From NCBI RefSeq assembly GCF_000730625.1, contig NZ_BBIT01000005.1:558001-622000 (forward strand): a DNA stretch of 64,000 nucleotides. Reading direction: 5' to 3'. The first letter of the stretch is position 1; the number at the start of each line of letters is the position of its first letter. The notes below the pieces were generated by a model, which did no database searches, had not been told where the DNA came from, and worked only from the letters and a program-made list of their open reading frames with translations. This document shows positions 5,529 through 45,294 of the stretch, piece by piece. A program made the position numbers and the translations under genes. Source of the stretch: Pseudomonas oryzihabitans NBRC 102199. Lineage in GTDB: Bacteria; Pseudomonadota; Gammaproteobacteria; Pseudomonadales; Pseudomonadaceae.

Positions 5529-7442
5529 CTAGCGCTGGGCAGTGGCCGCCGTCAGTTGCAGACTGGGCAGCAGGTAATGGCCGACGATGAACAGCGAGCC
5601 CTTGTCGCTCAGGTGACCATCGTCGATCTGCAGCAGGGTCCGGCCATCCGCAGCCCGTACCCGGCAGGCATCCTCGACGCAGAGTCGTTGCACCAGGGAG
5701 ATGTACTCCAGTCCTGCCGGGAGCCTGGCCTGGCGCATGGCCTGGTCGGTGGCGAGGACGTGGCGATCCAGGGCGGAGTCGGCGATGTGGTCATCGGTGC
5801 TGCCCCAGTGGCGGATGGCGATGACGCTGGGCAGCGACGGACTCCACTGGGGAACGGGGCCGAGCAGCACGATGCGCTTGACGCCATAGCTGTGCAGACG
5901 CTCGGTGATGGCGTTCCAGTCGGTCTTTTCGTGGTCAGCCTTCTGCGCCATGACCACCACCTCCGGACGCAGGCGCTGAATGGCTTCCAGGGCGGTGCGA
6001 TTGGAGTAGTTGCAAGTTACCCGCGTCTCGGTTTGCCGACCCATGTCGTCGGTGAGGCGCGGCTTGCAGCTCGCCGAGGCCACCTGGTAGTAGGGCAGGC
6101 CGGCCGGCAGCAGGCTGCGCAAGCCGAAGGACAGGGCTTGGGCATGGGAATCGCCCCAGACGAAGAGACCACCCTTGCCCTGGCCGTGGGTGCAGCTGGG
6201 GTCGATGGCGTCCTGGTGGCGTTGGGTAAAGGCCGAATAGGCGTCGCACTTGAGCCAGTAGAGGTCGTGGAGATTCTTCTGGCGATCCAGGTATTCCTGC
6301 ACGAATTGCGCGCGGTCCGACTGGCTGATGCTGCGCAGCGGCGTGATGGCACCGTCGGTGGCGTTCACCGCGCCCGCACTGATGAACAGGGTGGCGAGCA
6401 GGCCGGTGCCGGTGGCCAGCGCTGCACCGCTCTGGCCCTTGCGGCGCGAGGCACGGGTCTCCACCAGGGTGTAGGAAGCCCAACCCAGGGCGAAGGAGGC
6501 GGCGATGCCCAGCAGCAGGTGCGGCGTCTTGTCGAGCAGGCCGGCATAGCTCATGAACACCACCACCGGCCAGTGCCAGAGGTAGAGCGAGTAGGAGAGG
6601 GTACCGGTCCACTGGGAGAAACCGTTGCCGGTGACCAGCGAATCCTGGCGGGCGGCCAGGATGATGGCGGCAGTGCCAAGCACCGGGATCAGCGCCAGAT
6701 AGCCCGGCCAGACATCGCCTTCGGCGAGCGTCAGGAAACCCAACGCCAGGGCGAGCAGCCCGGCGCCTTCCAGCAGCCGGCGCGAGCGGGCGGCGAGTTG
6801 CAGCGGGAAGAGATAGGCGACGCCGCCCACCATCAGCTCCCAGGCACGGGTCGGCAGCAGATAGAAGGCCGCTTCCGGCCAGAGCAGGGAGGCGGTGACG
6901 GCGAAGGCGAAGCCGGCCGCGGTGGCGAGCAGGATCAGCACCCGCAGGGTCTTGAGCGACACCAGCTTGGACAGCAGCACCAGGATCAGCGGATAGACCA
7001 GGTAGAACTGCCATTCCACCGACAGCGACCAGGTGTGCAGCAGCCATTTCTCATGGGCCGCGGCGGTGAAGTAGCCGGCTTCCTTCCAGTAGACCAGGTT
7101 GGAAACGAAACCCAGGCTGCTCGCCACGTGCTTGCCCAGTTCGCCATAGGCGTTGGGCAGCAGGAAGAACCAGCCGGCAATCAACAGCACGGCGCAGAGT
7201 ACCGCCAGCGCCGGCACGATGCGGCGGACGCGGGATAGGTAGAAGGCGGACAGGCGGAAGCGCTGCTGTTCGAGGGCGCGAAAGATGATCCCGGTGATCA
7301 GGAAGCCGGAGATGACGAAGAAGACGTCGACCCCGGCGAAACCGCCCGGTAGCCAGTCGGCATTGAAGTGGAAGAGGACGACGGCGATCACGGCGATCGC
7401 GCGCAGCCCATTGATATCTTTCCTGAAGTCCATGAGCGGCAT
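5529..7442 (-). CDS. OafA-type acyltransferase with SGNH domain
   Basis: 637-residue inner-membrane protein. The N-terminal half is an acyltransferase-3 domain of about 10 membrane helices (opens FRKDINGLRAIAVIAVVLFHF, then GGFAGVDVFFVISGFLITG). The C-terminal 240 or so residues form a periplasmic SGNH-like domain (FVWGDSHAQALSFGLRSL near residue 430; DGHLSDKGSLFIVGHYLLP near the end with an Asp/His pair). Such proteins O-acetylate surface polysaccharides. The start may instead be the second Met at 7430. It follows the polymerase-like gene by 39 bp and should be co-transcribed, suggesting it decorates the polymer handled by that protein. Confidence 0.88.
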   Translation of the reverse strand: MPLMDFRKDINGLRAIAVIAVVLFHFNADWLPGGFAGVDVFFVISGFLITGIIFRALEQQRFRLSAFYLSRVRRIVPALAVLCAVLLIAGWFFLLPNAYGELGKHVASSLGFVSNLVYWKEAGYFTAAAHEKWLLHTWSLSVEWQFYLVYPLILVLLSKLVSLKTLRVLILLATAAGFAFAVTASLLWPEAAFYLLPTRAWELMVGGVAYLFPLQLAARSRRLLEGAGLLALALGFLTLAEGDVWPGYLALIPVLGTAAIILAARQDSLVTGNGFSQWTGTLSYSLYLWHWPVVVFMSYAGLLDKTPHLLLGIAASFALGWASYTLVETRASRRKGQSGAALATGTGLLATLFISAGAVNATDGAITPLRSISQSDRAQFVQEYLDRQKNLHDLYWLKCDAYSAFTQRHQDAIDPSCTHGQGKGGLFVWGDSHAQALSFGLRSLLPAGLPYYQVASASCKPRLTDDMGRQTETRVTCNYSNRTALEAIQRLRPEVVVMAQKADHEKTDWNAITERLHSYGVKRIVLLGPVPQWSPSLPSVIAIRHWGSTDDHIADSALDRHVLATDQAMRQARLPAGLEYISLVQRLCVEDACRVRAADGRTLLQIDDGHLSDKGSLFIVGHYLLPSLQLTAATAQR

Positions 7443-7481: not shown

Positions 7482-8780
7482 CTAGGCGTGGGGGGCCAGG
7501 GTTTCCGGTGCCGGGCGGACCAGGTGCAGGCCGGGGTCGGTCTTGGGCTTGAGCAGCAGATAGCCCAGGGTGATGCCGATGAACAGGTTGGCCACGCCGA
7601 TCTCGAAGAGGTCGGTGGTCCAGCCGATCAGGCAGAGACAGAAGGCGATGGCCAGCAGAGTGTGGCTTTCACGGTCGCGATTGAGGTACAGACGGATGAA
7701 CAGCGGCAGCTGCAGGCAGTATAGAGCGATGCCGACCACGCCGAACACGCACCACAGATAGACCACGCTGCTGTCGCAGTTGACCATCAGGTCCAGGCCC
7801 GGCACCGGGAAGGCGGCCATGGTGCTGCCGAACATGCCGAAGCCGGCGCCGGTCAGGGTCCAGCCGGGTTCGCTCATGACCTCGACCACGTTGGGCCAGG
7901 TGTTGACCAGGCGGTCGTAGAAGGAGGCCAGGCCGCTGTCGCTGGTGACCACATGGGGATCGAAGTCGCGGATCAGGCTCAGGATCGGCAGCAGCAGGCC
8001 GCCCACCACGCCGAGCAGCAACAGCAGGTAGGTGGACCACGGGAAGCGCCGACCCAGCATCAGCATCAGGGTGAAGGCGAAGGCCGCAGCCGGGGCCTTG
8101 CTGGTGGTCAGCAGGATGCCGAACAGGCCGGTCAGGGCCATCAGCAGCCAAAGCGTGTAGGAGCGCGCGAAATAGGAGAGATAGAGGCAGTAGACGGCGA
8201 TCAGGGCGGCCAGGACGTTGGACACGCGGGCGAAACCGGCGATGCGGTCGGCCTCGCCGGCCATCCAGTTGGTGTTGCCGGCGATGTCGTTGCCACCCAG
8301 GGTGTAGCTGTAGCCCTTCCAGGGGACGGAGGTGTACTTGTCCAGCAGGATGCCGATGAGCGAGGCGATCAGCAGACCCAGCACCACCCGGCCAAGCAGG
8401 CGTCGCTGCTCCAGCAGCTCGCGGCCGCAGAGCAGGCCGAATAGCAGTGGGCTGTAGACGAACAGCGAGAAGAAGACGTTGTTGATGCTGGCGCCATGCA
8501 GCAACGCCAGGGCCGCATAGGCCGGGATGCTGAGCAGGGCCACCCAGAGGATGCGCGGTAGCTTGGCGGTGGCCAGTTGCAGGGCGAAGAGCGCCAGGCA
8601 GGCGATCTTGGGCAGGTAGATCAACGCCGAGGCACCGGCCATGTCGAGGTAGTAGCGCAGGGCGCCGGAAAAGGTCTCGACGAACAGCAGCGAGATGGCG
8701 GTCCAGACCGCGAGGGTCGAATAGCGCCAGGACAAAGCCTGCTGGAACGCCGATTGCGGGGGGGCGACTACGGCCGACAT
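7482..8780 (-). CDS. Polysaccharide polymerase/ligase-like membrane protein (Wzy/WaaL type)
   Basis: About 432-residue multi-pass inner-membrane protein with roughly 11 hydrophobic segments. A large polar loop around residues 260-320 (IRDFDPHVVTSDSGLASFYD through GWTLTGAGFGMFG) matches the periplasmic loop layout of O-antigen polymerases and ligases; sequence identity in that family is low, so the call rests on topology. The frame is open to 8942, but I choose the ATG at 8780 (MSAVVAPPQSAFQQ) since AGGGA sits 8 bases before it. No glycosyltransferase or flippase is beside it, which is odd for a polymerase; exopolysaccharide locus 2 lacks one. An exact ops element lies about 150 bp upstream. 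Confidence 0.75.
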   Translation of the reverse strand: MSAVVAPPQSAFQQALSWRYSTLAVWTAISLLFVETFSGALRYYLDMAGASALIYLPKIACLALFALQLATAKLPRILWVALLSIPAYAALALLHGASINNVFFSLFVYSPLLFGLLCGRELLEQRRLLGRVVLGLLIASLIGILLDKYTSVPWKGYSYTLGGNDIAGNTNWMAGEADRIAGFARVSNVLAALIAVYCLYLSYFARSYTLWLLMALTGLFGILLTTSKAPAAAFAFTLMLMLGRRFPWSTYLLLLLGVVGGLLLPILSLIRDFDPHVVTSDSGLASFYDRLVNTWPNVVEVMSEPGWTLTGAGFGMFGSTMAAFPVPGLDLMVNCDSSVVYLWCVFGVVGIALYCLQLPLFIRLYLNRDRESHTLLAIAFCLCLIGWTTDLFEIGVANLFIGITLGYLLLKPKTDPGLHLVRPAPETLAPHA

Positions 8781-8928
8781 GATCATCATCCCTGGGTTGA
8801 TGCCGAGGCAGCGGGCCGTGGACGGCCGCTGCGCTGACGTGAAAGGCGCCAAAGCGATAACCAGCGCGAGGGCTCGCCACCTTGGCGTTGTCCCTGGGCT
8901 GGATGAGGTCTGCAAGCGAAAGGCAGGC

Positions 8929-8939
8929 ACGCTACCGCC
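8929..8939 (-). promoter_or_regulatory. Exact ops element (RfaH recruitment site)
   Basis: The minus strand reads GGCGGTAGCGT followed by GCCTG. The first 11 bases equal the ops element of enterobacterial JUMPstart leaders, where RNA polymerase pauses and loads RfaH. It lies in the untranslated leader of the polymerase/acyltransferase operon, about 50 bases after the predicted transcription start and 149 bases before the start codon. The window encodes an RfaH-like protein at 49043-49573. Confidence 0.7.
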
Positions 8940-8993
8940 CATGGCGGTCAGGAACGGCCACGGGCGACAGGTGGAAAAAGGTACGACGCGGGG

Positions 8994-9024
8994 ATGATAG
9001 CGGAGGGCTTCCGGCGCCTGTCAA
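8994..9024 (-). promoter_or_regulatory. Sigma-70-type promoter of the polymerase/acyltransferase operon
   Basis: On the minus strand TTGACA (9024-9019) and TATCAT (8999-8994) are separated by 19 bases. Both hexamers are close to consensus but the spacer is longer than the ideal 17. The predicted start near 8987 gives a leader of about 205 bases containing the ops element. Confidence 0.55.
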
Positions 9025-9034
9025 ACGGCGCCGG
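9011..9034. promoter_or_regulatory. Perfect inverted repeat overlapping the -35 box
   Basis: CCGGCGCC (9011-9018) and GGCGCCGG (9027-9034) are perfect 8-bp arms, and the 8-base loop contains the TTGACA -35 box on the minus strand. It could terminate the upstream DUF4870 gene (53 bases beyond its stop, no T-run) or be a regulator site controlling the polymerase promoter. Confidence 0.45.
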
Positions 9035-13811: not shown

Positions 13812-14864
13812 ATGAAGACCCCTACCTTGCTGGCGGCACTGCTCGCTGGCCTTGCAGCGCCGGCATTCGCCGTCGAGCAGAGCATCACCCTGACTCAGAC
13901 CGGTAATGACAACCAGGCCACCCTGAACCAGAGCGGCGGTCGCGCCAATAGCGTTGCGCAACTGCAAAGCGGCGACGGCAATCGTACGATCCTCGAACAG
14001 CGCCAGGCCTTCGGTGCCCAGGCGCGGATCGCGCAGACGTCCAGCGGCAATGGGCTGCAGATTTTCCAGGAAGGGAGTAATCAGCAGATCGTCGTGACCC
14101 AACTGGAAAACGGCAACCACTACGCCGAGATCACCCAAACCGGCGGTGGCGCGGGCAACGGCCTGGAGCTGGAGCAGCGCGGCAATGCGGCATCGGCCTA
14201 CCTGAGCCAGGCGGGCGATCTCAATGTGTACAGCGTGCGCCAGGCGGGCTTCGGCGGCAACGACCTGCGGGCGACCAGCACCGGCGATGGCAACCGGCTG
14301 ACCGTGGAGCAACGCGGCGGCGGCCTGGGGGAGGTGGTGCAGATCGGCAACGACAACGCGGCGCAGCTGACGCAAAGCGTGTCTTTCGCCGGTGGGCGGG
14401 CCACGCTGCGTCAGCAGGGCAACGGCAATCAGGTGCAGGCCGAGCAGGAAACCAGTCGCTACAGCAGCGCCCTGGCGCTGAGCCAGGGCGGCGACGGTAA
14501 CCAGGCCCAGTTGTCACAACGCGCTGGCTTCAGCGACATCACCTTCACCCAGCAGGGCAACGCCAACGAACTGAGCGCCACCCAGACCGGCTTGGAAGCC
14601 CGAATCGCCGGCATCAGCGCAGGCGATGCCAACCAGGCGACCTTCGTTCAGAGCGGCGTGCGGGTGGAGGCGGAGATCCAGCAGCAAGGCAATGGCAACC
14701 TGGCGTCCATTACCCAGGACACGGTGCCGGACAGCTTCAGCGGCGCCAGTGCCTTCATCGGCCAGACCGGCGACTCCAACTCGGCGATGATCGACCAGGT
14801 CGGTTCCACGGCGCGCATCACGCAGAGCGGCTTCGGTAACCAGGCGACGATCTACCAGCGCTGA
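13812..14864 (+). CDS. Curlin-repeat fibre protein (CsgA/CsgB-like), orphan
   Basis: 350 residues: a signal peptide (MKTPTLLAALLAGLAAPAFA) followed by curlin-type repeats over the whole mature part. About 17 units carry the G-N/D-x-N core (GNDNQATLNQ, GDGNRTILEQ, GNGNQVQAEQ, GFGNQATIYQ) with flanking Gln residues, spaced around 20-24 residues, and the protein ends right after the last unit. E. coli CsgA has five repeats, so this is a long version. Mature residues are almost free of Cys, Trp and Lys, as expected for an extracellular amyloid. The start has GGAGCGGAAG upstream. None of csgE, csgF, csgG or csgD is in the window. Confidence 0.85.
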   Translation: MKTPTLLAALLAGLAAPAFAVEQSITLTQTGNDNQATLNQSGGRANSVAQLQSGDGNRTILEQRQAFGAQARIAQTSSGNGLQIFQEGSNQQIVVTQLENGNHYAEITQTGGGAGNGLELEQRGNAASAYLSQAGDLNVYSVRQAGFGGNDLRATSTGDGNRLTVEQRGGGLGEVVQIGNDNAAQLTQSVSFAGGRATLRQQGNGNQVQAEQETSRYSSALALSQGGDGNQAQLSQRAGFSDITFTQQGNANELSATQTGLEARIAGISAGDANQATFVQSGVRVEAEIQQQGNGNLASITQDTVPDSFSGASAFIGQTGDSNSAMIDQVGSTARITQSGFGNQATIYQR

Positions 14865-17196: not shown

Positions 17197-18567
17197 TCAG
17201 TGCCGGAGCATGAAGGTGTCGTATTCCAGGTCGTCCAGCACCCGGTCCAGGCGGTGCAGACCCAGCAGCACGCAACAGGCCAGGGAGACGGTGAAGCCGT
17301 AGCCGAAGAAGCTCGGACCCAGCTCGATGCTGAGCAGGGTCAGCGCCAGGTTGAGGCCGAGAAACAGGGTGCAGAGCATCAGCACGGTGTCGCGCCGGTC
17401 CAGGTAGAAGAAGACGTTGAGCAGCGCCATGAACACCACCTGGATGCTCACCCCCACCACGTCGATGTAGAACAGCGGCAGGTAGTAGTGCGACATGCCG
17501 AGCCAGGCCAGCAGCTGGGGCGCCAGCAGGAACACCAGCACCAGGGTCAGGCCCTGGACCTTGCAGATCTCCAGCAGGCCCTGGCGGATGGCCAGGATCA
17601 TCTGCTCCTTGAGCTGGCTGATGTGCTGCAGGGTCTCGCCGCCGCGCACGGCGTTGAACACCCGCTCGTACCACTCGGCGAAGTCGGTCTCGATGCGCAC
17701 CAGGAACACCGCCATGCCGGGGATGATGGCCAGGTAGGCGAGAAAGATCGGCAGGTCGTAGAGGATGGAGGCGCGCAGCGGACCGATGACGGCATCGGAG
17801 GTCAGCGGATTGAACCAGAAGACGAATTTGTCGACCCAGATGCCCAGGTTGTAGAACAGCCCGGTGACCAGCAGGCTGATGAAGATCTGCTTGCGGTCGA
17901 GGAAGTCGAAGGCCACCAGACGCTCGGCCGGGTATTCGCGGATGATGTCGTAGAGAAACATGAACAGCAGGGCGGCGTGGCCCAGCAGCAGCGCCATAAG
18001 CAGGCCGTCCATGCCGAGGAAGCGCAGCACGAAGGCGGCGGCGATCATGATGGCGTAGCCCAGTGTCATCACCACCAGGATGCGGTTGTAGGCCTTCATC
18101 CCCGACAGGAAGATGATCACCAGCCAGAGATCGCAGAGGGTGACGAAGTTGGCCAGCACCAGCAGCCGGTAGGCGAAGGGCTGGTCGAACAGGGTGGCCA
18201 GCAGCAGGAAACCCAGGCCGCCGGCGACCAGCGTGACCAGGAGCAGGATGCCCACCAGATTGGGCAGGATGCTGGTCTGTTTCTCCTCGAACAGCCGGTC
18301 CGAGACGAAGCGGGTGAAATACAGCTGCAGGCCGCCGGTGAGGATCAGCGAGCTGGCCATGAGGTAGGTCACCGTGACCAGGAACTGGCGGATCAGCACG
18401 CTGGGGGTGACGATGCCGGTGGCCAGCACGCCGATCAGCATGACGCTGATGATCGACAGCACCCAGGGCCCCGAGCTGATCAGGCCGGCATAGACATAGG
18501 CGCGCAGGGTGGCGGTGTAGGAGTCGCGCGCGAGGATCTTGCGCAGTTCGAAGCCGATGCCGGCCAT
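17197..18567 (-). CDS. pelG: Pel polysaccharide flippase-like membrane protein PelG
   Basis: 456-residue inner-membrane protein of the MOP flippase type with about 12 membrane segments, starting MAGIGFELRKILARDSYTAT as other PelG proteins do. PelG is thought to move Pel across the inner membrane together with PelD, PelE and PelF. Length agrees with P. aeruginosa PelG (456). It starts one base after the pelF stop. Confidence 0.95.
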   Translation of the reverse strand: MAGIGFELRKILARDSYTATLRAYVYAGLISSGPWVLSIISVMLIGVLATGIVTPSVLIRQFLVTVTYLMASSLILTGGLQLYFTRFVSDRLFEEKQTSILPNLVGILLLVTLVAGGLGFLLLATLFDQPFAYRLLVLANFVTLCDLWLVIIFLSGMKAYNRILVVMTLGYAIMIAAAFVLRFLGMDGLLMALLLGHAALLFMFLYDIIREYPAERLVAFDFLDRKQIFISLLVTGLFYNLGIWVDKFVFWFNPLTSDAVIGPLRASILYDLPIFLAYLAIIPGMAVFLVRIETDFAEWYERVFNAVRGGETLQHISQLKEQMILAIRQGLLEICKVQGLTLVLVFLLAPQLLAWLGMSHYYLPLFYIDVVGVSIQVVFMALLNVFFYLDRRDTVLMLCTLFLGLNLALTLLSIELGPSFFGYGFTVSLACCVLLGLHRLDRVLDDLEYDTFMLRH

Positions 18568-18568
18568 G

Positions 18569-20092
18569 TCAGACGACCCTCCCGATGGCGTCCTGGTAGA
18601 GCTCGCGATAGCGTTCCAGCATCAGCGGCTCGGTGTAGTAGCGATTGACCCGGGCGAGGCCGGTGCGCTGCGCGGCCTGCCAGCGGCCGGGATTGCGCAG
18701 CAGGGCGAGGATGGCGCGGGCGGTGGCCTGGGGATCGGCGATGGCGACCACGCTGCCGCCGGTGCCCAGGGCGCGGTCCTCGGGGATGGAACCCTCGATC
18801 AGCTCGCGGCAGGAGCCCACGTCGCTGCTCACCACCGGCACCCCGGCGGCCCAGCCTTCGAGGATCACCAGCGGTTGGGCCTCGCTGATGGAGGTCAGCA
18901 CCATGAGGCCGAGCTTGGGCAGGATGTCGCCGATCTTCTGGAAGCCGAGGAATTTCACCTTGCCCTCCAGGCCCAGGCTGGTGACCAGGCTGTGGCATTC
19001 GGCGGCGTATTCCTCGTCTTCGTCTTCCGGGCCGACCACCCAGGCCTCGGCCTCGGGCATGGCGCTGATCACCCCGCGCATGGCGCGGATGAAGGTCTTG
19101 ACGTCCTTGATCGGCACCACCCGGCCGAGCAGCCCGACCACCGGCGGCACCCCTTCCGGGCGGCGCTCCAGGGCGTCCTGCCACTGGGTGAGGCTGATGC
19201 CGTTGGGGATCACCCGGCAGCGCGCGGGATCGGCGCCGTCCTGGATCTGCCGGCGGCGGTTGCCGTCATAGAGCGAGATGATCGGATCGGCGGCCTTGTA
19301 GGTGAGCAGGCCGATACGCTCGAAGAAGCGGATCCACAGCCGGCGGATGTAGCTGACGTCCACGTCCAGGCCAGTACGCAGGGCTTCATCGGGCCCTTCG
19401 GCGATCCACTTGGCCTGGGCCAGGTCGATCTTGCGTTCCTTGGTGTAGATGCCGTGCTCGCTGAGCAGGAAGTTGCAGCCCCAGCGCCGCTGCAGGATAG
19501 CGCCGAGCATGCCGGCGTAACCGGTGGAGATGGAGTGGATCATCCGCGGACGCGGCAGGCGGCGCGCGGCCTCGGCCAGCATCAGCAAGGGCGCCTGCAT
19601 GGCGCGCAGGGTCCAGAGGTAGTCGACGAAGGAGGGATCGGTGCAATAGCGCTCGTAGCCCTCGGTGATGGCCTCCCAGCTGGCGCGGCTGTACATGAAG
19701 TCGTCCAGGGTCACGCTGCCCTGGGCGAAGGCGTCCACCAGGGCATCGCCCTGGGCGGCGCTGGGTTCGTCGGGGTGGTGCAGGAAGGCGTGCAGGTCGC
19801 GCAGCAGCTGCACCGGCGCCTGGCGTCTTGGACTGATGGGCGCCGCCTTGGGCACCCAGGACCCGGCGAGAAAGTGTTCCTCGATGTGCACCACGTTGGG
19901 CGGGATGGCGTAGTGGCGCTTCTCGTAGTTCTCGCGCTGGCCGCCGATGAAGAACACCGAGAAGGTCAGCTCCGGCAGGCCGAGGATCAACTGGTTGACC
20001 CAGCTCGACACCCCGCCGCGCACATAGGGCCAGGTGCCCTCCAAGAGCAGGCAGACATCGGGGGTGACGGTCGCGGCGGGGGCGTCTTTCAT
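18569..20092 (-). CDS. pelF: Pel polymerising glycosyltransferase PelF
   Basis: 507-residue cytoplasmic family-4 glycosyltransferase that builds the GalNAc/GlcNAc-type Pel chain from UDP-sugars. N-terminal part: DVCLLLEGTWPYVRGGVSSW. C-terminal part: GRVVPIKDVKTFIRA and the E-x7-E motif SEAQPLVILEGWAAGVPVV. Length equals the P. aeruginosa protein. The first 4 bp overlap the end of pelE, indicating translational coupling. Confidence 0.96.
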   Translation of the reverse strand: MKDAPAATVTPDVCLLLEGTWPYVRGGVSSWVNQLILGLPELTFSVFFIGGQRENYEKRHYAIPPNVVHIEEHFLAGSWVPKAAPISPRRQAPVQLLRDLHAFLHHPDEPSAAQGDALVDAFAQGSVTLDDFMYSRASWEAITEGYERYCTDPSFVDYLWTLRAMQAPLLMLAEAARRLPRPRMIHSISTGYAGMLGAILQRRWGCNFLLSEHGIYTKERKIDLAQAKWIAEGPDEALRTGLDVDVSYIRRLWIRFFERIGLLTYKAADPIISLYDGNRRRQIQDGADPARCRVIPNGISLTQWQDALERRPEGVPPVVGLLGRVVPIKDVKTFIRAMRGVISAMPEAEAWVVGPEDEDEEYAAECHSLVTSLGLEGKVKFLGFQKIGDILPKLGLMVLTSISEAQPLVILEGWAAGVPVVSSDVGSCRELIEGSIPEDRALGTGGSVVAIADPQATARAILALLRNPGRWQAAQRTGLARVNRYYTEPLMLERYRELYQDAIGRVV

Positions 20093-22966: not shown

Positions 22967-25900
22967 CTAGCGACCGATTCGATTGCTGTATTGAATGCCC
23001 AGGGTGCTGCCGGCCTGACCGCCGCTGCCCTGGGGCGCGGACTGGTAGCCGGCGGTGAACGCCAGTTCGTCGTCGCCGAGCACTACCATGCCCAGGCCGA
23101 CATTCAAACCGTAGTTGAATTCGCGCTCGGTCCACTGCCAGCCGACCAGGGTGTCCACCAGCCAGCTGTATTGGGGATGGGTGCGGTTGAGCGAACCGGG
23201 AATGCCGCGTCGCCAGCTGCTGCCGACATAGAGCTGGCCATAGCGATCCTGCAACAGCTGGGTGCCGCCCAGGGCTTCCAGGTCGGCCACGGTGACCTCG
23301 CCGTTCTCGCCACTGCCGGCCAGCGGCTGCAGGTAGCGGGTGACGCTGGCGGGCAGGGTGCTGCGCGCACTGTTCTGCTGATAGGTGATGCCACTGCGCA
23401 CCTGCCAGGTGGGACCTTCGAAGAAGATCATGTGGCTCAGCTCCAGGTTGAAGGCGAAGCCGCTGCCCAGGGCATCGCCGTCCCGACTGGAATAGCGATT
23501 GTGCGCCGCTCGCCAGCTCAGCTGGTCGCGTGGCGTGAGGTTGTGGCGCCCGGCCAGGCTGACGCTGTCCCGCCGGCCGAGGGCGCGCAGATAGCCGCTC
23601 TCGTCGGGTTGCCGGTGCCAGTCCAGGGCCGCCTCGATCTCGGTGTTGCCATCGATACGCCAGGTGCGGGCGACGCCCAGGCCCAGGCGATTGCTGTCCG
23701 AACGCTGGCTGGCATCGACGGTGGTTTCCAGACCGCCATCGGCCAGGTTCTTCAGCACCTTGAGCAGCATCTGGTGTTCGTTGCCCAGGGCATCGGACTT
23801 GAGGCCGCTGCTCTCCACGCGATTCTGCTTGAGCTGGACATCGGCATAGATGTCATCGCTGAGTCGCCGGGCGGCGCGCACCTCGGTGCCCTGTTCGATC
23901 AGACCGCCATAGTCGCGGCGTTCCCAGCCGGCCTGGACGCCGTTGGGGGTGCGCTCGGCCTGCTCGGTGGCCTGGCGCAGCAACTGTCGCTGGATGACCT
24001 CCGGCGGCTCGTCGCCGGCGGCCGTCAGGGCCGCGGCCTGGGCGTCGCCGGCATGGCCGAGGCGCTGCAGCATCTCGACGCGCTGCGCCGGATCCAGATC
24101 GCCGGCCGCCAGCAGCTTTTCCAGCTCGCCGCGATTCTGCCGGCGCAGGACTTCCTGCAACTGCTCGTACTGGCGCACCTTCAGACCACGGCTCTTGGCC
24201 CAGGCCAGCCATTCGCCCTTGAGGCCGTCGTCGTTGTTCTGGCTGAGTGCGTCGAGCCACTGATCGAACCAGAGTTGCAGCATGCTCGGCGAGCCATCCT
24301 GCCAGGCACGCGCCTGGGCCAGCGCCGCCTGGGGACCGCGCAGGCTGGAGAGCAGACGCAGGTAGGTGGCATAGCGCTCGGGGGTGGCCGGCACCTCGTC
24401 GTTGGCCAGGTGCGGCGTGACGGCCTTGCGCAGCCGCAGCGCCGCGTCCTGGTGACCGGCGGCGTCCAGGGCGTCGGCGTAGGCGGCCTGCACCAGCCAG
24501 TCCTGGGGATGGGCGTCCAGGTAGCGGCGATACCAGCCAAGCGCCTCTTCCGCCTGGCCCAGCAGCACCAGGCCGCTGCCGAAGGGTAGCCAGAGCACGT
24601 CGCTGTCCCGGGCCCGGCCCTTCCAGTCGCGCAGCAGGGTGGCCAGTTCGGTCTGGCGATTCTGATCGATGAGCAGCCACAGCAGCCGTTCGCGGAAGCG
24701 GTCGTCATCCGGAAAGCGCTGCAGGGCCTGGCGATAGCCCTCTTCGGCCTGGGCGATGCGCCCGCGCTGGAAGTCCAGCCCCGAGCGCGCCAGCCAGACC
24801 GCGGGATTGTCGGCCGAAGCCGGCTCGCGCGCGGCACTGGCCAGCAGCCGCTCCAGCGCCGCGGTGTCCTTGAGTTGCTCGGCCCATTGCAGGGCGTCGG
24901 TCAGGCGCTTCTGGTTCTTGCTCTTTTCCCAGCTCTTTTCCAGCAAGGCCAGGGCCTTGCGCGGCGCCGTGCGCAGATAGATCGCCAGCAGTCGATCCTC
25001 GTCGTTGGCGGTCAGGCCCTTGTCGATCGTGGCCAGGCGTTCGAAGGCCAGCTGGGCTTCGCCGTCGCGCTCCAGCTCCCAGGCCAGCTCCGCCCGCAGC
25101 CGCCAGTAGTCGACGCCCTGCCGCTGCTTGGCCGGCATGCCCTCGAGCACCTTCCAGGCTTCTTCGGGCTTGAACAGCTCCCACAGGGTGCCGGCCCAAG
25201 TCAGATACTCCGCGTTGGTCAGCGGGAATCTCTTGCCGAACGCGGCCCAGCCTGCGGCTTCGGCGTCGCCCTGCTCGGTACGGGCCAGCAGCTGCTGCAG
25301 CCGCTCCCAGGCCAGGCGCTGCTTCGGCTGACGCCGGATGTAGTCCCGCAGCCAGCGCTCCTCGGCGGCGGGATCGCCCAGGGATTCGTAGGCGAAGATC
25401 AGCGCATCCAGTTCGGTCTTGTCCAGCTGCCGTTGCCGCGACGCCTCGGCCAGCAACTCGACCACGGCATCGAAGCGAAACGCCCGCGCGGCCAGCTTCC
25501 AGGCATGATCGCGCCGTTCCGGATCGTCCTGGCGCGCCAGCAGGCGCAACCAGAGGTCGAGGGCTTCGTCCATATGCCCGGTCCACTCGCCCAGCTGGGC
25601 CAGTTCCGCGAGCAGTTTTTCATCGTCCGGACGCAGCGCCAGCAGCTGATGACCCTCTTCCCAGGCACGTTCGGTGTCGCCTCGGCCCAGGGCCAGCCGG
25701 TACGCGGCCTCCAGGGCGGCCGGGTCGTCCGGCTGCCACTCGCGCCAGCGATCGATCAGGCGCTGGGCCAGGTCCAGGCGCCCGCTGCCCTGGGCGGCGG
25801 CCACCCCGGCCTGCAGCCAGGCCAGACCACTGGCATCGGCCTGCAGCCGCGGCAGTTCCTGTTCCAGCAGGGCGGCGGCCTCGGCGCCCTGGCCGGCGGC

Positions 25901-26569
25901 AAGCCAGGCATCGAAGGCCTGGTGCCGGTAGCCCTGGCGTTGCTCGACCGAATCGGCGAGATCGGCCAGGCGCAGATAGAGGCGGGCGGCCTCCTGCTGC
26001 CGCCCGCCGGCCAGACTCCAGCGCGCTGCCTGTTCCAGCCATTGCTGGCGCCGGGGCGGATCGCGGCGCGCCAGTTCGACATAACGCTGCGCCGCCGTGG
26101 CCGGATCGCCCAGTTGCAGGGCGCGCTCGGCGACCCGTTGCAGCTGGGGCGTGCTCAGGGTCGCCACGTCCAGGGCGCTCAGCTGTTGGGCCAGGCGCTC
26201 GCGCTCGGCATCGGCCAGGCCTTGCGGCTGGGCTTCAGCCTGCAGGATGTCCAGCTCCAGGGCATAGAAGGGCGTCGACGCCAGCGGTTTCGGCAGCAGC
26301 TGCAATTGCCGCCGCGCCTCGTCGATGCGCCCGAGGGCGATCAGCTGGTCGATCAGCTTCATGCGCAGCCCGGTGTCGTCCGGGGTCGCCTTGAGCAGCA
26401 CCTGGGCGTAGCTGATGGACACCTGGTCGGCCGGCTCCTCGCCGGGCAGGAAGACCTGCTTGCCATGAAAGGTCAGCACCAGCACCAGTGCGGTGAGGAG
26501 CGCGACCCCCAGCAGCGTCCAACCACTCAGGAGCCGGGTTTTCTTAGCCGCAGACGATCTCACCGTCAC
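22967..26569 (-). CDS. pelB: Pel export porin with TPR scaffold PelB
   Basis: 1200-residue protein. One N-terminal membrane helix (LLSGWTLLGVALLTALVLVL, about residues 13-32), roughly 800 residues of TPR repeats in the periplasm, and a C-terminal outer-membrane beta-barrel of about 320 residues (repeated amphipathic strands, ending GSTLGIQYSNRIGR). The P. aeruginosa protein has 1193 residues. TPRs bind PelA and place it at the exit pore. Overlaps the pelA end by 26 bp. Confidence 0.96.
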   Translation of the reverse strand: MTVRSSAAKKTRLLSGWTLLGVALLTALVLVLTFHGKQVFLPGEEPADQVSISYAQVLLKATPDDTGLRMKLIDQLIALGRIDEARRQLQLLPKPLASTPFYALELDILQAEAQPQGLADAERERLAQQLSALDVATLSTPQLQRVAERALQLGDPATAAQRYVELARRDPPRRQQWLEQAARWSLAGGRQQEAARLYLRLADLADSVEQRQGYRHQAFDAWLAAGQGAEAAALLEQELPRLQADASGLAWLQAGVAAAQGSGRLDLAQRLIDRWREWQPDDPAALEAAYRLALGRGDTERAWEEGHQLLALRPDDEKLLAELAQLGEWTGHMDEALDLWLRLLARQDDPERRDHAWKLAARAFRFDAVVELLAEASRQRQLDKTELDALIFAYESLGDPAAEERWLRDYIRRQPKQRLAWERLQQLLARTEQGDAEAAGWAAFGKRFPLTNAEYLTWAGTLWELFKPEEAWKVLEGMPAKQRQGVDYWRLRAELAWELERDGEAQLAFERLATIDKGLTANDEDRLLAIYLRTAPRKALALLEKSWEKSKNQKRLTDALQWAEQLKDTAALERLLASAAREPASADNPAVWLARSGLDFQRGRIAQAEEGYRQALQRFPDDDRFRERLLWLLIDQNRQTELATLLRDWKGRARDSDVLWLPFGSGLVLLGQAEEALGWYRRYLDAHPQDWLVQAAYADALDAAGHQDAALRLRKAVTPHLANDEVPATPERYATYLRLLSSLRGPQAALAQARAWQDGSPSMLQLWFDQWLDALSQNNDDGLKGEWLAWAKSRGLKVRQYEQLQEVLRRQNRGELEKLLAAGDLDPAQRVEMLQRLGHAGDAQAAALTAAGDEPPEVIQRQLLRQATEQAERTPNGVQAGWERRDYGGLIEQGTEVRAARRLSDDIYADVQLKQNRVESSGLKSDALGNEHQMLLKVLKNLADGGLETTVDASQRSDSNRLGLGVARTWRIDGNTEIEAALDWHRQPDESGYLRALGRRDSVSLAGRHNLTPRDQLSWRAAHNRYSSRDGDALGSGFAFNLELSHMIFFEGPTWQVRSGITYQQNSARSTLPASVTRYLQPLAGSGENGEVTVADLEALGGTQLLQDRYGQLYVGSSWRRGIPGSLNRTHPQYSWLVDTLVGWQWTEREFNYGLNVGLGMVVLGDDELAFTAGYQSAPQGSGGQAGSTLGIQYSNRIGR

Positions 26570-29354
26570 TCACTCGTGTTAGCGGAAGTTTGAACGTCTG
26601 GAGTCCGGCCGCAGCCGGCTGGCTCTTGTAGCGCTCGCGACCGACCCGCACCTCGCAGGCCGAGGACGCGCGCAGGGTCAGCTCCAGCGGGAATTGTCCG
26701 GCGAAGGCGAAGCGGATGCGCGTCGGCGACAGGTAGTCCCACTGCTGCAGCGGAATGTTGGCCTCTTCGAGGGCGGGGGTGGGGTCGCGGCTGTCACGCA
26801 GGACCAGCCGCGCCTGAGCGCCGGCCAGGTGGACATAACGCCCCTGCGGCAGGTCGCGGACCCCAGCGATGCCCCTGGAGCGCTGCAGATCCGGCCAACC
26901 CAGGCGCGGATCCAGGCGCAGGGTACGCAGACCGTCGAGGGCCTTGATCGACCAGCTGCCGTCGTCTTCCCGGGCGAGACTGGCGGTATAGAAGCCGCGC
27001 AGGCGACTCAGGTAGTCGCTCATCCACAGCGAAATGGGATGTTCGGCGGCCATGCCCTGGTAGATCTCTTCCATGACCTTGAGCGACGCCTGCTTGGTGG
27101 CCGAGTAGAAGTGGTAATAGAGATGCAGGCCGCGCAGACGCCGGGGGTGCTCGGTCCGTTCGAAGGTATAGAGCAGATCGCGAAAGCCGTAGTAGGGACC
27201 GCGCCAGAGATTGGTGTAAACGTTCTCGTTGATGATGGGCGCATAGAACTGCAGGCCGCCCGGGGTGGGGCGGATGAAGGGATAGAGTCCGCTCACCGAA
27301 GGCTGCGACCGGGTGATGTGCGAGTTGCCGCCGTTCACGTTGAGCAGGCCATTGTCGTAGGCGAGCTTGAGGGTGGCGGCATCCGGCTGGGCGTCCCCGG
27401 ACCAGAACACCATCTTCACCGGCTTCTGCGGGGTGGTCAGGCGCTCGTTGATATAGCGGGTCGAACCCACGATCTCCCGGGTGAAATCCACCTTGTCGTA
27501 GCCGGGAATCTGCATCATGTAGCCGTACTGGGCTTCGAAGTTCTCGCTCTGCTCGGCCACCGCCGGTTGCCAGAAGAACGGGTGGCTGAAGGTGTGGGTG
27601 GCCACCTCCACCTTGGGATCGGCGAACAGGCGACGGGCGATGGGCTCCAGTTGCGCGGTCAGCTCCGGATAGCGGCCCTTGGGGCCGACCTCGCCTTCGA
27701 TGATCGACGCCGAGGTCAGAAAGGGATGCGGCTGGATGAACTGCTCCAGCACCACCTGGCCGGAAAAGGGCGCACCGGGAATCTCCGCCTTGGAGGCGAA
27801 GGCGTCGCCGTCGATGTGCACGGTGGCGATGCGTCGACCGTTCTCCGTGGTCGGATCGGGTACCGGCAGGGGTGGCAGTTGCAGGGTCTTCGCGGTGAAG
27901 GCGAAGGGATCGATGATCCAGCGACTGGCTTCGGGACCGTCTTCCATGACATAGGGGCCGAAGGCGAAGCCGCCCCAGGAGGCCACGCCCATGGGCACGA
28001 AGGTGCCGCCCGGACCGCTCAGGCTGACCACCGGGGTCGGCCCACCGGGCAGCGTCTGCACGGCGGGCAGGTCACGCGTGCGCAACTTGACCGGTGCTTC
28101 GAAGTTGCCGGCCAGGGCAGGGTCCAGCACCTTGAGGGTCAGGCCGTCGGGCAGCGGCTTGCGACTGACGCCCAGACCCAGGCGCTTGAGCAGGGCCTCG
28201 TTGTCCAGCGGCAGGCCACCGAGAATCAGCAGCGGCGTCTTTTCGTCCAGGCGCTGGCCGATCCAGTCGCTGAATTCCCGGGAATGAGGGGGCGGACCGC
28301 TGGTCATCCACACCACGACCCCGGCGTAGAGAGCACTGGGCCAGGCCGCGGGCAGCGGCTTGGAGGCATCGAAATAGTCCAGGCGATAGCCCTGATACTC
28401 CAGGGCACTGCCCAGGAAACGGTGCACCGCCGACTGGCGCAGGGCGCCTTCGCGGCCGTCGTAGAGCAGCGCCAGCCGCCGTGGCTGCAGGGCCACCGAG
28501 CTGATGCCCAGGGTATTGAGATCGGGCGTGGTGATATAGGGCACATAGCCTTCGTCGCGCAGCCGCCTGGCCAGGCGCCGGGCTTCCTCACGCTGCTCCG
28601 GCGGCAGGTACTCGATGGCGATGACCGGGATACCGGCACTGCGCGCCGCCTCGATCCGCGGCTTCAGCCACTCGCGGTCTTGCTCGCTGACGGGACGATA
28701 GGTCTTCTTGCCGGCATCCCAGCCGGCGTAGAGGGATTCCACCGCCATGGCGGCAGCCACCCCGGGCAATTCCGGTTGCACCTCGAAGCCACGGTTGAAG
28801 AACAGCTTGAGCGCTGGCTGGCGGCGGTGCAGCTCGGCCAGCAGGCTCTTCAGCGCCAGGCGCTGGGTTTCCCGCTGGTCTTCGGCCACCAGCTGGAAAC
28901 TGTCGAGGGTGTCGAGGAACAGCCCCGTGTAACCGGCTTTGGCCAGCTGGGCGGCGCGTTCGAGCAGGTGGGTTCGCCATACCGGCGCTGCCAGGTTCAT
29001 CACCTGGCTGCCCCAGGCCTTGTTGGCCACCGGGCTTGCACCCGCGCTGAGACCGGCCTTCTCCAGCGCCGCCGCATCGCCGGCGAATTCGCCGATGGAC
29101 AGGTAGGCGAAGGGCTGGGCACCGCCGTCGTGCAGCGCGCGGACATCGGCGGCATTGGCATGGCCGGGTTCGAGCACCACCCAGTCGAACTGGGCGAGTT
29201 CGGCCACCGGCGGCTTTTCCGCATACCAGAAGGCCACGCTGGCGGGCGCGGCCAGGGCCGTCCCCATGAGTGACAGGGAGCCCAGCAGCCATACCGTCAG
29301 CCGGCGCCACCAACCGAAGCGGGACCCTGCTCTAATTGCCTTGCCTGACGCCAC
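26544..29354 (-). CDS. pelA: Pel deacetylase/hydrolase PelA
   Basis: 936-residue periplasmic bifunctional enzyme. Signal peptide about residues 17-36 (LTVWLLGSLSLMGTALAAP). The N-terminal glycoside hydrolase domain keeps the catalytic-type glutamate in AMAVESLYAGWD (about residue 205). The deacetylase domain shows a metal site of the expected type: aspartates in VHIDGDAF (about 512) and the paired histidines in THTFSHPFFW (about 586 and 590). Partial deacetylation makes Pel cationic and is needed for export. First gene of the pel operon; no FleQ-type box was recognised upstream. Confidence 0.95.
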   Translation of the reverse strand: MASGKAIRAGSRFGWWRRLTVWLLGSLSLMGTALAAPASVAFWYAEKPPVAELAQFDWVVLEPGHANAADVRALHDGGAQPFAYLSIGEFAGDAAALEKAGLSAGASPVANKAWGSQVMNLAAPVWRTHLLERAAQLAKAGYTGLFLDTLDSFQLVAEDQRETQRLALKSLLAELHRRQPALKLFFNRGFEVQPELPGVAAAMAVESLYAGWDAGKKTYRPVSEQDREWLKPRIEAARSAGIPVIAIEYLPPEQREEARRLARRLRDEGYVPYITTPDLNTLGISSVALQPRRLALLYDGREGALRQSAVHRFLGSALEYQGYRLDYFDASKPLPAAWPSALYAGVVVWMTSGPPPHSREFSDWIGQRLDEKTPLLILGGLPLDNEALLKRLGLGVSRKPLPDGLTLKVLDPALAGNFEAPVKLRTRDLPAVQTLPGGPTPVVSLSGPGGTFVPMGVASWGGFAFGPYVMEDGPEASRWIIDPFAFTAKTLQLPPLPVPDPTTENGRRIATVHIDGDAFASKAEIPGAPFSGQVVLEQFIQPHPFLTSASIIEGEVGPKGRYPELTAQLEPIARRLFADPKVEVATHTFSHPFFWQPAVAEQSENFEAQYGYMMQIPGYDKVDFTREIVGSTRYINERLTTPQKPVKMVFWSGDAQPDAATLKLAYDNGLLNVNGGNSHITRSQPSVSGLYPFIRPTPGGLQFYAPIINENVYTNLWRGPYYGFRDLLYTFERTEHPRRLRGLHLYYHFYSATKQASLKVMEEIYQGMAAEHPISLWMSDYLSRLRGFYTASLAREDDGSWSIKALDGLRTLRLDPRLGWPDLQRSRGIAGVRDLPQGRYVHLAGAQARLVLRDSRDPTPALEEANIPLQQWDYLSPTRIRFAFAGQFPLELTLRASSACEVRVGRERYKSQPAAAGLQTFKLPLTRVSDGEIVCG

Positions 29355-29628: not shown

Positions 29629-30741
29629 TTACTTGAAGCTGCTGTTCAGGTTGGCGCTGGTGGAGAGGATGTTGGTCGAGCCCAGCAGCTGGCTGACGAA
29701 GCGGTTCCAGCGGGTGATACCGGCCGGGCCGACGAAGACCACGTCCTGCGGCTGCAGATGGAAGTTCTGCGCCAGCACATAGGCGGTGGGATTCTTGGCC
29801 GCCAGGTGGAAGACCTGGGCGGTGGCACCCGGGGCCTTCAGGTCTTCCGGGCCACGGATGACGTAGACGGCATCGGCGTTGGCGGTTTCCTGCTGGATGC
29901 CGCCGGCCTGGCTCAGGGCTTCCATCAGGTTCAGGTTGGTGATCTTGTAGCTGACCGCTGCCGGAGCGCGGACTTCACCGACCACATAGACCTTGCGGGC
30001 ATCGTTGTAGGGCAGGTGCAGGCTGTCGCCGTCCTTCAGGTAGATGCCGTACAGCTTGGAATCCTTGCGGTTCAGGCTGTCGGTGTCCAGGCGGTATTCC
30101 TTGCCGTCACGCACCAGGGTCACGCCGGTCAGATCAGCGCCACCGCTGTTGGCCACGCCGGCCTGACCCAGGGCTTCCACCAGGGTGATGGGCTTGGTGG
30201 TCAGGGGAATGGCATCGCCCTTGTTCACGGCGCCGGAGATGGTGACCTTCTGGCTGCCGAACTTCAGCACGCTGACGTCGACCTGGGGATTGTCGATGAA
30301 GGTGGCCAGACGACGGGAGATATCGGTACGGATCTCTTCCAGGGTCTTGCCGGCGGCGCGCACGGTGCCGACGTAGGGGTAGAACAGGGTGCCATCCGGA
30401 CGCACCAGGCGACCGTTGGCTTCCAGCTGCTGCTGGGCGCCGGACGGAGCGGTCAGTTCGGGGTGATCCCAGACGGTGATGTAGAGCAGGTCGCTCGCAC
30501 CGACGCGGTAAGCCTGCGGCTTGTAGTCCAGCAGGGGCTTGAGGTCGGGAGCCTTGGACAGGGCCGCGGAATCCTGGCTCATCAGCAGCGAGCTGGTGAT
30601 CGGGATCAGCTGGACCTTGGTGCCCTGGATGCTCGGATCGCTTTTCAGGTCGTCCTGATCCAGGTACTGACCCGGGGAGTAGGCACAACCCTGCAGGACG
30701 ATGCCAGACAGCAAGGCCAGAGCGGTAAATTTGGTTTTCAT
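29629..30741 (-). CDS. wza: Outer-membrane polysaccharide export lipoprotein (Wza type)
   Basis: 370 residues from the ATG at 30741. Lipoprotein signal MKTKFTALALLSGIVLQGC with the cysteine at residue 19. Wza-family domains: the export domain (YRVGASDLLYITVWDHPEL), SLBB-like repeats (VTISGAVNKGDAIPLTTKPI, KVYVVGEVRAPAAVSYKITN) and a C-terminal LQPQDVVFVGPAGITRWNRF amphipathic helix region. It forms the octameric channel of Wzx/Wzy export. It lies at the far end of locus 1, 283 bp from the preceding GH5 gene; that gap holds an imperfect hairpin (30898-30908 with 30924-30935) and no gene, so a separate promoter is possible. Confidence 0.93.
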   Translation of the reverse strand: MKTKFTALALLSGIVLQGCAYSPGQYLDQDDLKSDPSIQGTKVQLIPITSSLLMSQDSAALSKAPDLKPLLDYKPQAYRVGASDLLYITVWDHPELTAPSGAQQQLEANGRLVRPDGTLFYPYVGTVRAAGKTLEEIRTDISRRLATFIDNPQVDVSVLKFGSQKVTISGAVNKGDAIPLTTKPITLVEALGQAGVANSGGADLTGVTLVRDGKEYRLDTDSLNRKDSKLYGIYLKDGDSLHLPYNDARKVYVVGEVRAPAAVSYKITNLNLMEALSQAGGIQQETANADAVYVIRGPEDLKAPGATAQVFHLAAKNPTAYVLAQNFHLQPQDVVFVGPAGITRWNRFVSQLLGSTNILSTSANLNSSFK

Positions 30742-31024
30742 GTCATTCGTCCTTGATTGCTGATTGAGTGTGAGCAAGAGGAATAAATCGGAAGGTAGAA
30801 GCAACGAGCCGGTTATTCATGGTGTTCCTTCGCGAGACATAACGGTCCTCGACAGGGGACTGGATTCCATGCGGCCAGCCTATCCAGCGGCGAGAGAACT
30901 CGGGTCTCAGCTTTTAGTTGTAAGAGCACCTGAGTCTGCTGGTCTAGGACTGGCCCTTGGCCATCGAGTTCAGCGCCACCGGAGCGGAAAAAGGTGACGC
31001 CGTTCGAAATCTGTCATATCTCTG

Positions 31025-32077: not shown

Positions 32078-32116
32078 CTCTCGTGTGTTGCGTAAGTTCG
32101 TCTGGACAGGGCTCCC

Positions 32117-33388: not shown

Positions 33389-33443
33389 CGTGGGGGTGAA
33401 AACTCCTTGAGGCCGCCCGACCGACGTCGGGCGGCACGCGGGA

Positions 33444-34721: not shown

Positions 34722-34805
34722 AGACCTACCCATCCAGACGGGACCACCGGACTGCTTGTCCGGTGGTCATCTTCCTTGCGGCTGAGAACGCTGCGGGGCA
34801 GCCCC

Positions 34806-36414: not shown

Positions 36415-36614
36415 TGGCGTGTTCCTATTCTTCAGAATCATCAATCCGGTACAGCGTCGAGATCCAAGGCTGCCAAGCGTGGCCGGGTTCAGGAGCGAAC
36501 CCTTCGAAATCGCTGTGTGAGGTAGTTTCTTGTTCGATGCGCCTGTACGAATACTGCCGCGATCCCTGAAGGGATTGGCTGGACGGCGCTCGGGCCGTCC
36601 AGCCGGGTCGTGCA

Positions 36615-38831: not shown

Positions 38832-38846
38832 GAAATTCCTTCTTCC

Positions 38847-39287
38847 CTATTTGATGTATGGAAGCCAACTGTCTACACAGCGCGTCAAAAGTATTTGGAC
38901 ATTTTGAAACATCTCTTTAGAAAGGCGATAAGGGTCTGGTACTTCTTGATTGCTCAACCATTTCCCGATCAGAAAAACCTTACCCCTGACTTCAGGAGCA
39001 ATACTTTCGACGGAGCGTGAGTGGAACTCTTCCATGGTCAAAATCAAATCCGCCTTGCGCAGCATCTCTGCATCCGCCTGGCGAGCTTTGTGGGTGGTGA
39101 AATCGATGCCGTTCTCCCGTAGCAATACCTCCTGAGCGGTCTTTTCCATGCCGTGGCCCACTAGCGCCCTTATGCCGGCCGAACCGACCTGGACGTCACG
39201 GCCTTCCAGCGCCTTGGCCAGTAGTGCTTCTGCGACCGGGCTGCGACAGATGTTCCCTTCGCATACAACCAATATCGACTTGATCAT
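38847..39287 (-). CDS. wzb: Low-molecular-weight protein tyrosine phosphatase (Wzb type)
   Basis: 146 residues. Signature CEGNICRSP (C-x5-R) at residues 9-17 and the general-acid loop PDPYRLS near residue 118. It dephosphorylates the Wzc tyrosine cluster to allow polymerisation cycles. Only one phosphatase is present in the window for two Wzc kinases. Confidence 0.94.
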   Translation of the reverse strand: MIKSILVVCEGNICRSPVAEALLAKALEGRDVQVGSAGIRALVGHGMEKTAQEVLLRENGIDFTTHKARQADAEMLRKADLILTMEEFHSRSVESIAPEVRGKVFLIGKWLSNQEVPDPYRLSKEMFQNVQILLTRCVDSWLPYIK

Positions 39288-45249: not shown

Positions 45250-45294
45250 GTCGTCTTCCTTAAGCGTGAAATGAAATCAAGTGCTGGTGCTGAA

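Follow-up and report, generated by a model that had tools for sequence, protein, structure and literature searches.

A conserved candidate ops element probably links an isolated wzy gene to a distant rfaH-bearing cluster in Pseudomonas oryzihabitans

In the 64,000-nucleotide stretch of Pseudomonas oryzihabitans NBRC 102199 DNA analysed here (the window), the leader of an isolated polysaccharide polymerase gene, wzy, contains a 12-mer that matches the ops element at every base. Comparative sequence evidence makes it very likely that this 12-mer is a working ops element and that RfaH, acting from an exopolysaccharide operon, exerts its effect on wzy through it; the element probably connects this lone gene with the rfaH-bearing exopolysaccharide cluster found 40 kb from it. 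The pairing of an ops signal with an RfaH regulator is of a known kind, with the leaders of the LPS core, haemolysin and F tra genes of E. coli as examples. The present case adds a specific, conserved sequence as the candidate signal by which Pseudomonas-type RfaH is recruited, and this allows targets to be predicted genome by genome. It also offers a natural experiment in which a polymerase gene lies outside the RfaH operon and carries an ops of its own. The coordinates of the features are collected in Table 1.

Table 1. Features of the wzy unit and of the rfaH-bearing cluster, in window coordinates.
Feature	Position	Strand	Basis or remark
AT3-SGNH acyltransferase	5529-7442	minus	Pfam Acyl_transf_3 and SGNH; second gene of the wzy unit
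wzy, Wzy_C-type polysaccharide polymerase/ligase, 432 aa	7482-8780	minus	Pfam Wzy_C; 11/13 genus genomes
Conserved CAGGGATGAT and start context, Shine-Dalgarno-like AGGGA	8781-8794	minus	10-column invariant run
Conserved CGCCAAGGTGGCG, stem CGCCA/TGGCG, variable loop base	8875-8887	minus	island in leader alignment
ops element GGCGGTAGCGTG (candidate)	8928-8939	minus	all 12 ops bases exact
Predicted RNA hairpin: anti-ops 5' arm (8963-8973), apical stem-loop, ops as 3' arm	8928-8973	minus	folding
-10-like TATCAT, wzy promoter	8994-8999	minus	19-base spacer from TTGACA
-35-like TTGACA, wzy promoter	9019-9024	minus	pattern match in 10/10 aligned genus leaders
Exopolysaccharide cluster	44050-56980	minus	Pfam
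rfaH	49043-49573	minus	47 bases after wzc, same direction; TIGR01955 above cut-off
3' ops-like copy TGCGGTAGCCATG, exopolysaccharide leader	57418-57430	minus	sequence
5' ops-like copy TGCGGTAGCCATG, exopolysaccharide leader	57472-57484	minus	sequence
-10-like AATCAT, exopolysaccharide operon	57670-57675	minus	spacer 17 from TTGACA
-35-like TTGACA, exopolysaccharide operon	57693-57698	minus	read from sequence

The ops element in the wzy leader

As an initial annotation of the window had reported, the 11-mer GGCGGTAGCGT occurs exactly in the minus-strand leader, at 8929-8939, and inspection of the flanking base shows that the twelfth ops position, a G, is present too (GGCGGTAGCGT(G), 8928-8939), with G4, G5, T6 and the TG at positions 11/12 all in place. 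The element lies on the sense strand of the early untranslated leader. The promoter that the annotation had placed about 50 bases before it is found as a TTGACA-19-TATCAT pattern separated from ops by 54 bases, and the pattern recurs in all 10 aligned genus leaders; a consensus promoter scan, which permits spacers of 16-18 only, lists none at the wzy leader. The annotated distance of 149 bases to a polymerase-like gene is also correct, counted from the last base of the 11-mer to the ATG at 8780, and the product of that gene matches Pfam Wzy_C below the gathering score (25.7 bits against 31.7; E 1.1e-05). Upstream of the leader lie DUF4870 and rph genes in the same direction.

The ops element is beyond chance by conservation and not by count. 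The annotation's argument that an exact match is improbable by chance is weak by itself: because the 5.03-Mb genome holds three exact 11-mers and three copies of the backwards pattern, we dropped the genome-wide count as evidence, and the two remaining genomic copies overlap mechanically called ORFs. Both observations are what a functionless chance 11-mer in the leader would lead one to expect, and the genome search that the annotation had suggested thus finds no excess over the backwards control, leaving conservation to support the element. Within the window, five sites match ops with at most one mismatch (1.74 expected; 5 of 100 shuffles reach five), and a plasmid collection searched with the leader gave no match.

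Leader-like DNA is present in 10 of the 13 genus genomes, the window's own counted, and the ops 12-mer is intact in nine of these orthologous leaders, the tenth (G007) having one mismatch, at base 1. The stretch that separates the -10 hexamer from the start codon spans 224 alignment columns, 73 of them invariant, and the longest invariant run is exactly GCGGTAGCGTG; runs of at least 11 columns appear in 7 of 20,000 column shuffles. Further invariant runs correspond to ACGCCAAG, within CGCCAAGNTGGCG, and to CAGGGATGAT ahead of the start. Wzy and RfaH genes co-occur in the same 11 of the 13 genomes, the same two lacking both, and the same element is found at RfaH loci family-wide (see below). 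Set against the equal genomic counts, the persistence of ops as a conserved island in a leader that has otherwise diverged over 10 genomes, the joint occurrence of Wzy with RfaH and the family-wide recurrence of the element leave a chance origin strongly disfavoured once the leader alignment is considered, and highly improbable overall.

That the motif is kept as coding sequence is the least credible of the alternatives. In the window, the wzy frame is open from an ATG at 8942 into the gene, and GGCGGTAGC would form the protein's first residues. Across the 10 leaders, however, the distance from ops to the start varies between 131 and 160 bases and takes all three values modulo 3, the reading frame to the start not being kept; stops fall in the wzy frame in 4 of 10 genomes; and the 8942 ATG exists in G000 and G003 only, with GTG in G010 and G012. 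Since the distance spans all residues modulo 3 and four of the ten genomes have stops, we regard the leader as non-coding and reject a coding origin of the motif.

Folding of the leader RNA raises a different alternative, namely that the motif owes its conservation chiefly to a place in an RNA hairpin or attenuator, whose 3' arm it would form, and not to being a DNA signal for RfaH. In the own folds of all 10 wzy leaders the ops RNA forms a 3' arm that pairs with an upstream arm, and two terminator-like patterns overlap ops. When ops is fixed and the upstream 48 bases are shuffled, the wzy leaders give a median z of -3.0, with 7 of 10 below -1.5, as against a median of -0.1 for coding copies of the 14-mer GGCGGTAGCGTGCC (1 of 32 below -1.5) and medians from -0.8 to 1.0 for other ops sites. 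We consider the ops/anti-ops hairpin of the wzy leader a probable structure; a role in limiting backtracking or resetting the pause is a guess. Against pairing as the reason for conservation, the 5' arm drifts while the ops arm is invariant even at positions 6, 7 and 9, which are unpaired in some genomes; this pattern argues that sequence, not pairing, is held. Formal covariation is not significant (a single pair has changes in both arms; the covariation score is equalled or exceeded in 83 of 500 shuffles), and could hardly be so with one arm fixed, and a count of paired arm positions (104/116) is biased by the choice of arms through folding and carries no weight as evidence. Moreover, most other ops sites lack a comparable fold: the fraction below z -1.5 is 0/7 for each of the two exopolysaccharide copies of the oryzihabitans group, 7/53 and 6/53 for the tandem copies of other loci, 1/11 for single sites and 8/28 for distal sites. 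A hairpin upstream of ops is thus unsupported as a general feature, although the distal fraction means that it may not be unique to wzy. Taken together, these results make it improbable that the motif is kept chiefly for the hairpin, and we retain the reading of ops as a recruitment signal.

Two other islands of the leader are of separate note. The first, nearer to ops, reads CGCCAAGNTGGCG and is kept in all 10 wzy leaders with the loop base alone varying; CGCCAAGGTGGCG has a single exact copy in the window. The second, CAGGGATGAT, overlies the wzy ribosome site and resembles a CsrA/RsmA site; a second layer of control on wzy is possible.

A displaced polymerase gene and the rfaH-bearing cluster

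The wzy unit is short. A convergent dehydratase gene lies directly 3' of wzy in 8 of 10 genus leaders, making wzy a single-gene unit in those genomes, and the acyltransferase is joined to wzy in only 2 of 11 wzy loci, those of the window strain and of G003. A long operon, described as the most obvious shared feature of RfaH targets in the available text of one source (PMC7593976), is therefore not what we find downstream of this ops: wzy stands alone in 8 of 10 cases and with the acyltransferase in 2 of 10.

The initial annotation had called the polymerase an orphan, but displacement describes it better. Comparison of window Wzy with rfaH clusters by tblastn gave a homologue of 44-48% identity, situated between homologues of the GT4 genes 46767 and 45647, within the cluster at 28 of the 74 loci that fall outside the oryzihabitans group (one genome counted twice). 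The homologue is in the cluster at 0 of 16 oryzihabitans-group loci (nine genomes, seven present twice), where the two GT4 genes adjoin; the remaining 46 of the 74 loci gave no in-cluster match to this Wzy, which divergence may explain. Because the homologue resides in the rfaH operon in 28 of 74 loci outside the group and in none of 16 inside, the oryzihabitans-group wzy looks, from sequence, like a displaced polymerase gene with its own canonical ops, some 40 kb off.

The cluster itself comprises a gene without a Pfam match followed by genes for a DegT aminotransferase, a flippase, a GT2 glycosyltransferase, Wzc, RfaH, a second GT2 protein and three GT4 proteins. Pfam detected no Wzy within it, nor did tblastn with window Wzy on the same cluster in nine relatives. 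A second exopolysaccharide cluster, at 29632-40929 (minus strand), encodes an initiating sugar transferase, a second Wzc, WecG-type and GT2 glycosyltransferases, a flippase, a GH5 cellulase and a Poly_export (Wza-type) protein; its leader contains no GCGGTAGC.

Examination of the leader of the rfaH-bearing operon revealed a feature that the initial annotation had missed, a tandem pair of ops-like copies about 7.9 kb upstream of rfaH. Both copies read TGCGGTAGCCATG, with the TG at positions 12/13 rather than 11/12, and for this reason we term them ops-like. In the 13 genus genomes the 13-mer TGCGGTAGCCATG has 20 sites, 19 of them in the exopolysaccharide leader, against 7 for the backwards control. 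Two GTGCGGTAGC cores, 51-96 bases apart, are present in this leader in all 11 RfaH-positive genus genomes, including the distant G004.

The RfaH-like protein that the annotation had placed 40 kb from wzy is confirmed by the curated equivalog model TIGR01955, which it passes with 154.6 bits against a cut-off of 144.5. Its best solved-structure matches are RfaH chains, headed by PDB chain 8pen_P (E 8.2e-19), and it is 97% identical to its counterpart in Pseudomonas oryzihabitans YY7, the nearest named genome among those fetched. In E. coli RfaH, K10, R23 and R73 contact ops and R16 is functional, as reported in the available text of PMC5995543; the equivalents K16, R22, R29 and R78 are kept in the window protein, and an alignment of 41 Pseudomonas-type RfaH sequences has the lysine in 40 and each of the three arginines in all 41. 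The same text describes H20 as touching T6 and its change to alanine as strongly defective (PMC5995543). The equivalent in window RfaH is N26, the column containing H in 23 and N in 18 of the 41 sequences, and because N is a common natural form we do not hold N26 to exclude membership of the RfaH family. Both residues of the E48:R138 salt bridge, which ties the RfaH domains together according to the part of PMC6370827 available, are present as E53 (E in 38 of 41) and R143 (41 of 41).

RfaH and ops-like sites across the family

From the 441 relatives found, the 80 best named RfaH loci were compared. Upstream of rfaH, 60 of them carry two [TG]GCGGTAGC copies on the same strand, separated by 51-147 bases; in another 11 a single GGCGGTAGCGTG follows the beginning of the rfaH match by 0.67-1.16 kb. 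Neither layout occurs in the other nine, which consist of four short contigs without a site, four loci with one upstream site and one locus (L173) whose sole [TG]GCGGTAGC site is 7.6 kb downstream of rfaH. The tandem pair is absent from all 80 loci when the pattern is reversed (0/80) or the minus strand is read (0/80). In the same loci GCGGTAGCGTG falls 51 times on the rfaH strand, twice on the opposite strand and never backwards. Counts of the bare 8-mer GCGGTAGC differ little between the strands (145 with rfaH, 116 opposite; 108 backwards), so that it is uninformative on its own. A motif-free search returned GCGGTAGC as the 8-mer most often repeated at 40-160 bases (60/80); the highest count among unrelated 8-mers is 23/80.

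The 5' copy has its TG at 12/13 in 52 of the 60 pairs. By combination, 26 pairs unite 12/13 with 11/12, both copies have 12/13 in 20 pairs and 11/12 in 7, and the last 7 pairs are otherwise composed; in the available text of PMC5995543, a TG at 11/12 is common to validated E. coli targets. The loose pattern GCGGTAGC-N(73-103)-GCGGTAGC proved unspecific, occurring in 166 of 298 family genomes with a backwards control that is commoner in most rows (in G000, 0 against 21 backwards), so only position relative to rfaH carries weight. Folding of the tandem copies in three groups (32 of the 60 pairs) yielded no common RNA fold.

Across 298 family genomes the 14-mer GGCGGTAGCGTGCC is present in 96 of 171 RfaH-positive genomes (RfaH match with E at most 1e-25) and in 24 of 127 RfaH-negative ones (p = 6e-11, a statistic that ignores kinship), and its backwards form in 22 of 171 and 11 of 127 (p = 0.27, likewise). 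Together with conservation in the genus and the co-occurrence of Wzy with RfaH in 11 of 13 genomes, this association supports, on comparative grounds, the annotation's proposal that ops recruits the RfaH-like protein to the polymerase operon. Comparison of 150 listed GGCGGTAGCGTGCC places with 63 listed rfaH places finds 28 that share the strand of an rfaH gene and lie from 12 kb before to 2 kb after it; one of them also accounts for the sole opposite-strand pairing, relative to a second rfaH gene. Six genomes of one genus, g9 (G020, G035, G058, G068, G089 and G096), have two 14-mer sites each on the rfaH strand, one about 0.7 kb past the rfaH start in five of them and 7.6 kb past it in G058, and the other 24-30 kb before it in all six.

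Sites far from rfaH in RfaH-positive genomes lie outside called coding ORFs in 28 of 40 cases, as against 2 of 20 sites in RfaH-negative genomes; the ORF calls are mechanical, and both sets were hand-picked, non-randomly, from listed places and differ in genus and G+C (median 57% versus 61%). Because of this difference in G+C we recounted without the base-composition rule, which gave 19/40 versus 0/20 at 120 aa, 23 versus 1 at 150 aa, 24 versus 2 at 200 aa and 31 versus 7 at 250 aa. The genomes and loci are related, so none of these counts are independent. The annotation had suggested testing for enrichment upstream of surface-polysaccharide operons, and a near-equivalent was run family-wide: after setting aside five of the 28 distal non-coding sites that have no downstream ORF by the rules applied, 20 of the 23 downstream genes were scanned (L189, L203 and L204 omitted), and 11 of these are polysaccharide genes (Wzc, Wza, flippase, nucleotide-sugar enzymes), 3 encode BBP2_2 porins and 6 are other or unknown.

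These distributions bear on a further alternative, in which another NusG-type factor is recruited, or pausing alone operates, with no role for this RfaH. In E. coli, ops acts as a consensus pause site according to the available text of PMC5995543; the genome contains a second NusG-family match, a weaker one, and the 14-mer is also found in the 24 RfaH-negative genomes. Against this, the 14-mer tracks RfaH over the 298 genomes, and 18 of the 20 RfaH-negative sites examined fall in called coding ORFs. We judge this alternative very improbable, and continue with RfaH as the partner of ops.

Proposed mechanism and relation to known systems

In E. coli, RNA polymerase pauses at ops and RfaH binds, stays on the enzyme, excludes NusG and helps translation, as set out in the available portions of PMC5995543 and PMC7819879. 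By analogy, polymerase starting at the TTGACA/TATCAT promoter would pause about 60 bases on, at ops, where RfaH from the gene 40 kb away would read the exposed non-template strand; the factor would then remain on polymerase, displace NusG and carry transcription and translation of wzy past early termination. Pausing, RfaH binding, antitermination and translation coupling at wzy are what we infer from this likeness; map position suggests that the cluster is co-transcribed, that RfaH regulates its own operon and that synthesis of a single polysaccharide is jointly controlled. RfaH would probably promote its own operon through the tandem pair and also act in trans on the displaced polymerase gene as a member of the same pathway. 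The position of rfaH, about 7.9 kb behind the double ops of the operon on which it would act, makes positive feedback likely; wzy would come on together with the exopolysaccharide operon or later.

Several observations speak against this mechanism. A conserved Shine-Dalgarno-like AGGGA precedes wzy, while RfaH-controlled genes are described as lacking a Shine-Dalgarno sequence in the part of PMC7819879 available; the wzy unit is short; N26 replaces H20; and the 11-mer is not enriched genome-wide. Long-operon processivity cannot be the reason for RfaH at a single-gene unit of 1.3 kb, and both the job of RfaH on such a unit and the reason for two ops copies become testable questions.

The likeness to the E. 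coli system consists of an identical 12-mer on the sense strand of the early leader of a surface-polysaccharide gene (compared with the available text of PMC5995543 and PMC7819879), and of a regulator that passes the curated model with the K10, R16, R23 and R73 equivalents in place. Unlike in E. coli, rfaH here lies inside its presumed target operon, whose leader carries a pair of ops-like copies in which the TG is often at 12/13 and not 11/12; the wzy target consists of one gene in 8 of 10 genomes and has a Shine-Dalgarno-like AGGGA, and the regulator has N in place of H20. A regulator within its own target operon recalls the NusG paralogs UpxY and TaA, as covered in the available text of PMC7593976; the presumed trans target 40 kb off and an E. 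coli-type ops as the signal distinguish the present case. JUMPstart (Rfam RF01707) likewise places ops and a stem-loop close upstream in polysaccharide-gene leaders, the conserved stem-loop being named in the available part of PMC2864571, whereas in the wzy leader the prediction makes ops itself one side of the stem, its 3' arm. Searched up to E 5, neither the wzy nor the exopolysaccharide leader matches RF01707, and we reject a JUMPstart identity; the same search of Rfam returned nothing for the wzy leader and two weak, unrelated families for the exopolysaccharide leader. In P. stutzeri 273, an RfaH-domain protein has been proposed as direct activator of the EPS273 locus, which again links an RfaH-type protein to exopolysaccharide; the available text of that report (PMC5532660) names no ops, in contrast to the signals located here.

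Among the open-access literature matches listed, judged by titles and the starts of abstracts, we found no ops in Pseudomonas and no tandem ops, nor a shifted TG, an in-operon rfaH with a single-gene target in trans or an ops/anti-ops hairpin; the one mention of 'tandem ops' refers to a laboratory template with ops followed by a his pause (available text of PMC2871177). More speculatively, RfaH of the Pseudomonadaceae might be a pathway-internal messenger with a new signal layout, in which RNA polymerase would travel about 8 kb past a double ops, where the pause-type TG of one copy is often displaced by a single base, before any RfaH could be made, followed by self-feedback and by licensing in trans of a lone polymerase gene whose hairpin-ops leader resets the pause, the tandem ops forming a two-step, cooperative or bistable gate. 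We regard this reading as tentative and rather unlikely as a whole; were it true, the polysaccharide polymerase would appear only after the assembly enzymes.

Elsewhere in the window, a Curlin-repeat protein (Pfam Curlin_rpt; 13812-14864, plus strand) is preceded by two small ORFs without a Pfam match, and pel-type genes occupy 17.2-29.4 kb on the minus strand, with PelG at 17200-18567, a DUF3492/GT4 gene at 18572-20092, a PelB barrel at 22970-26569 and a GH114 gene at 26547-29354.
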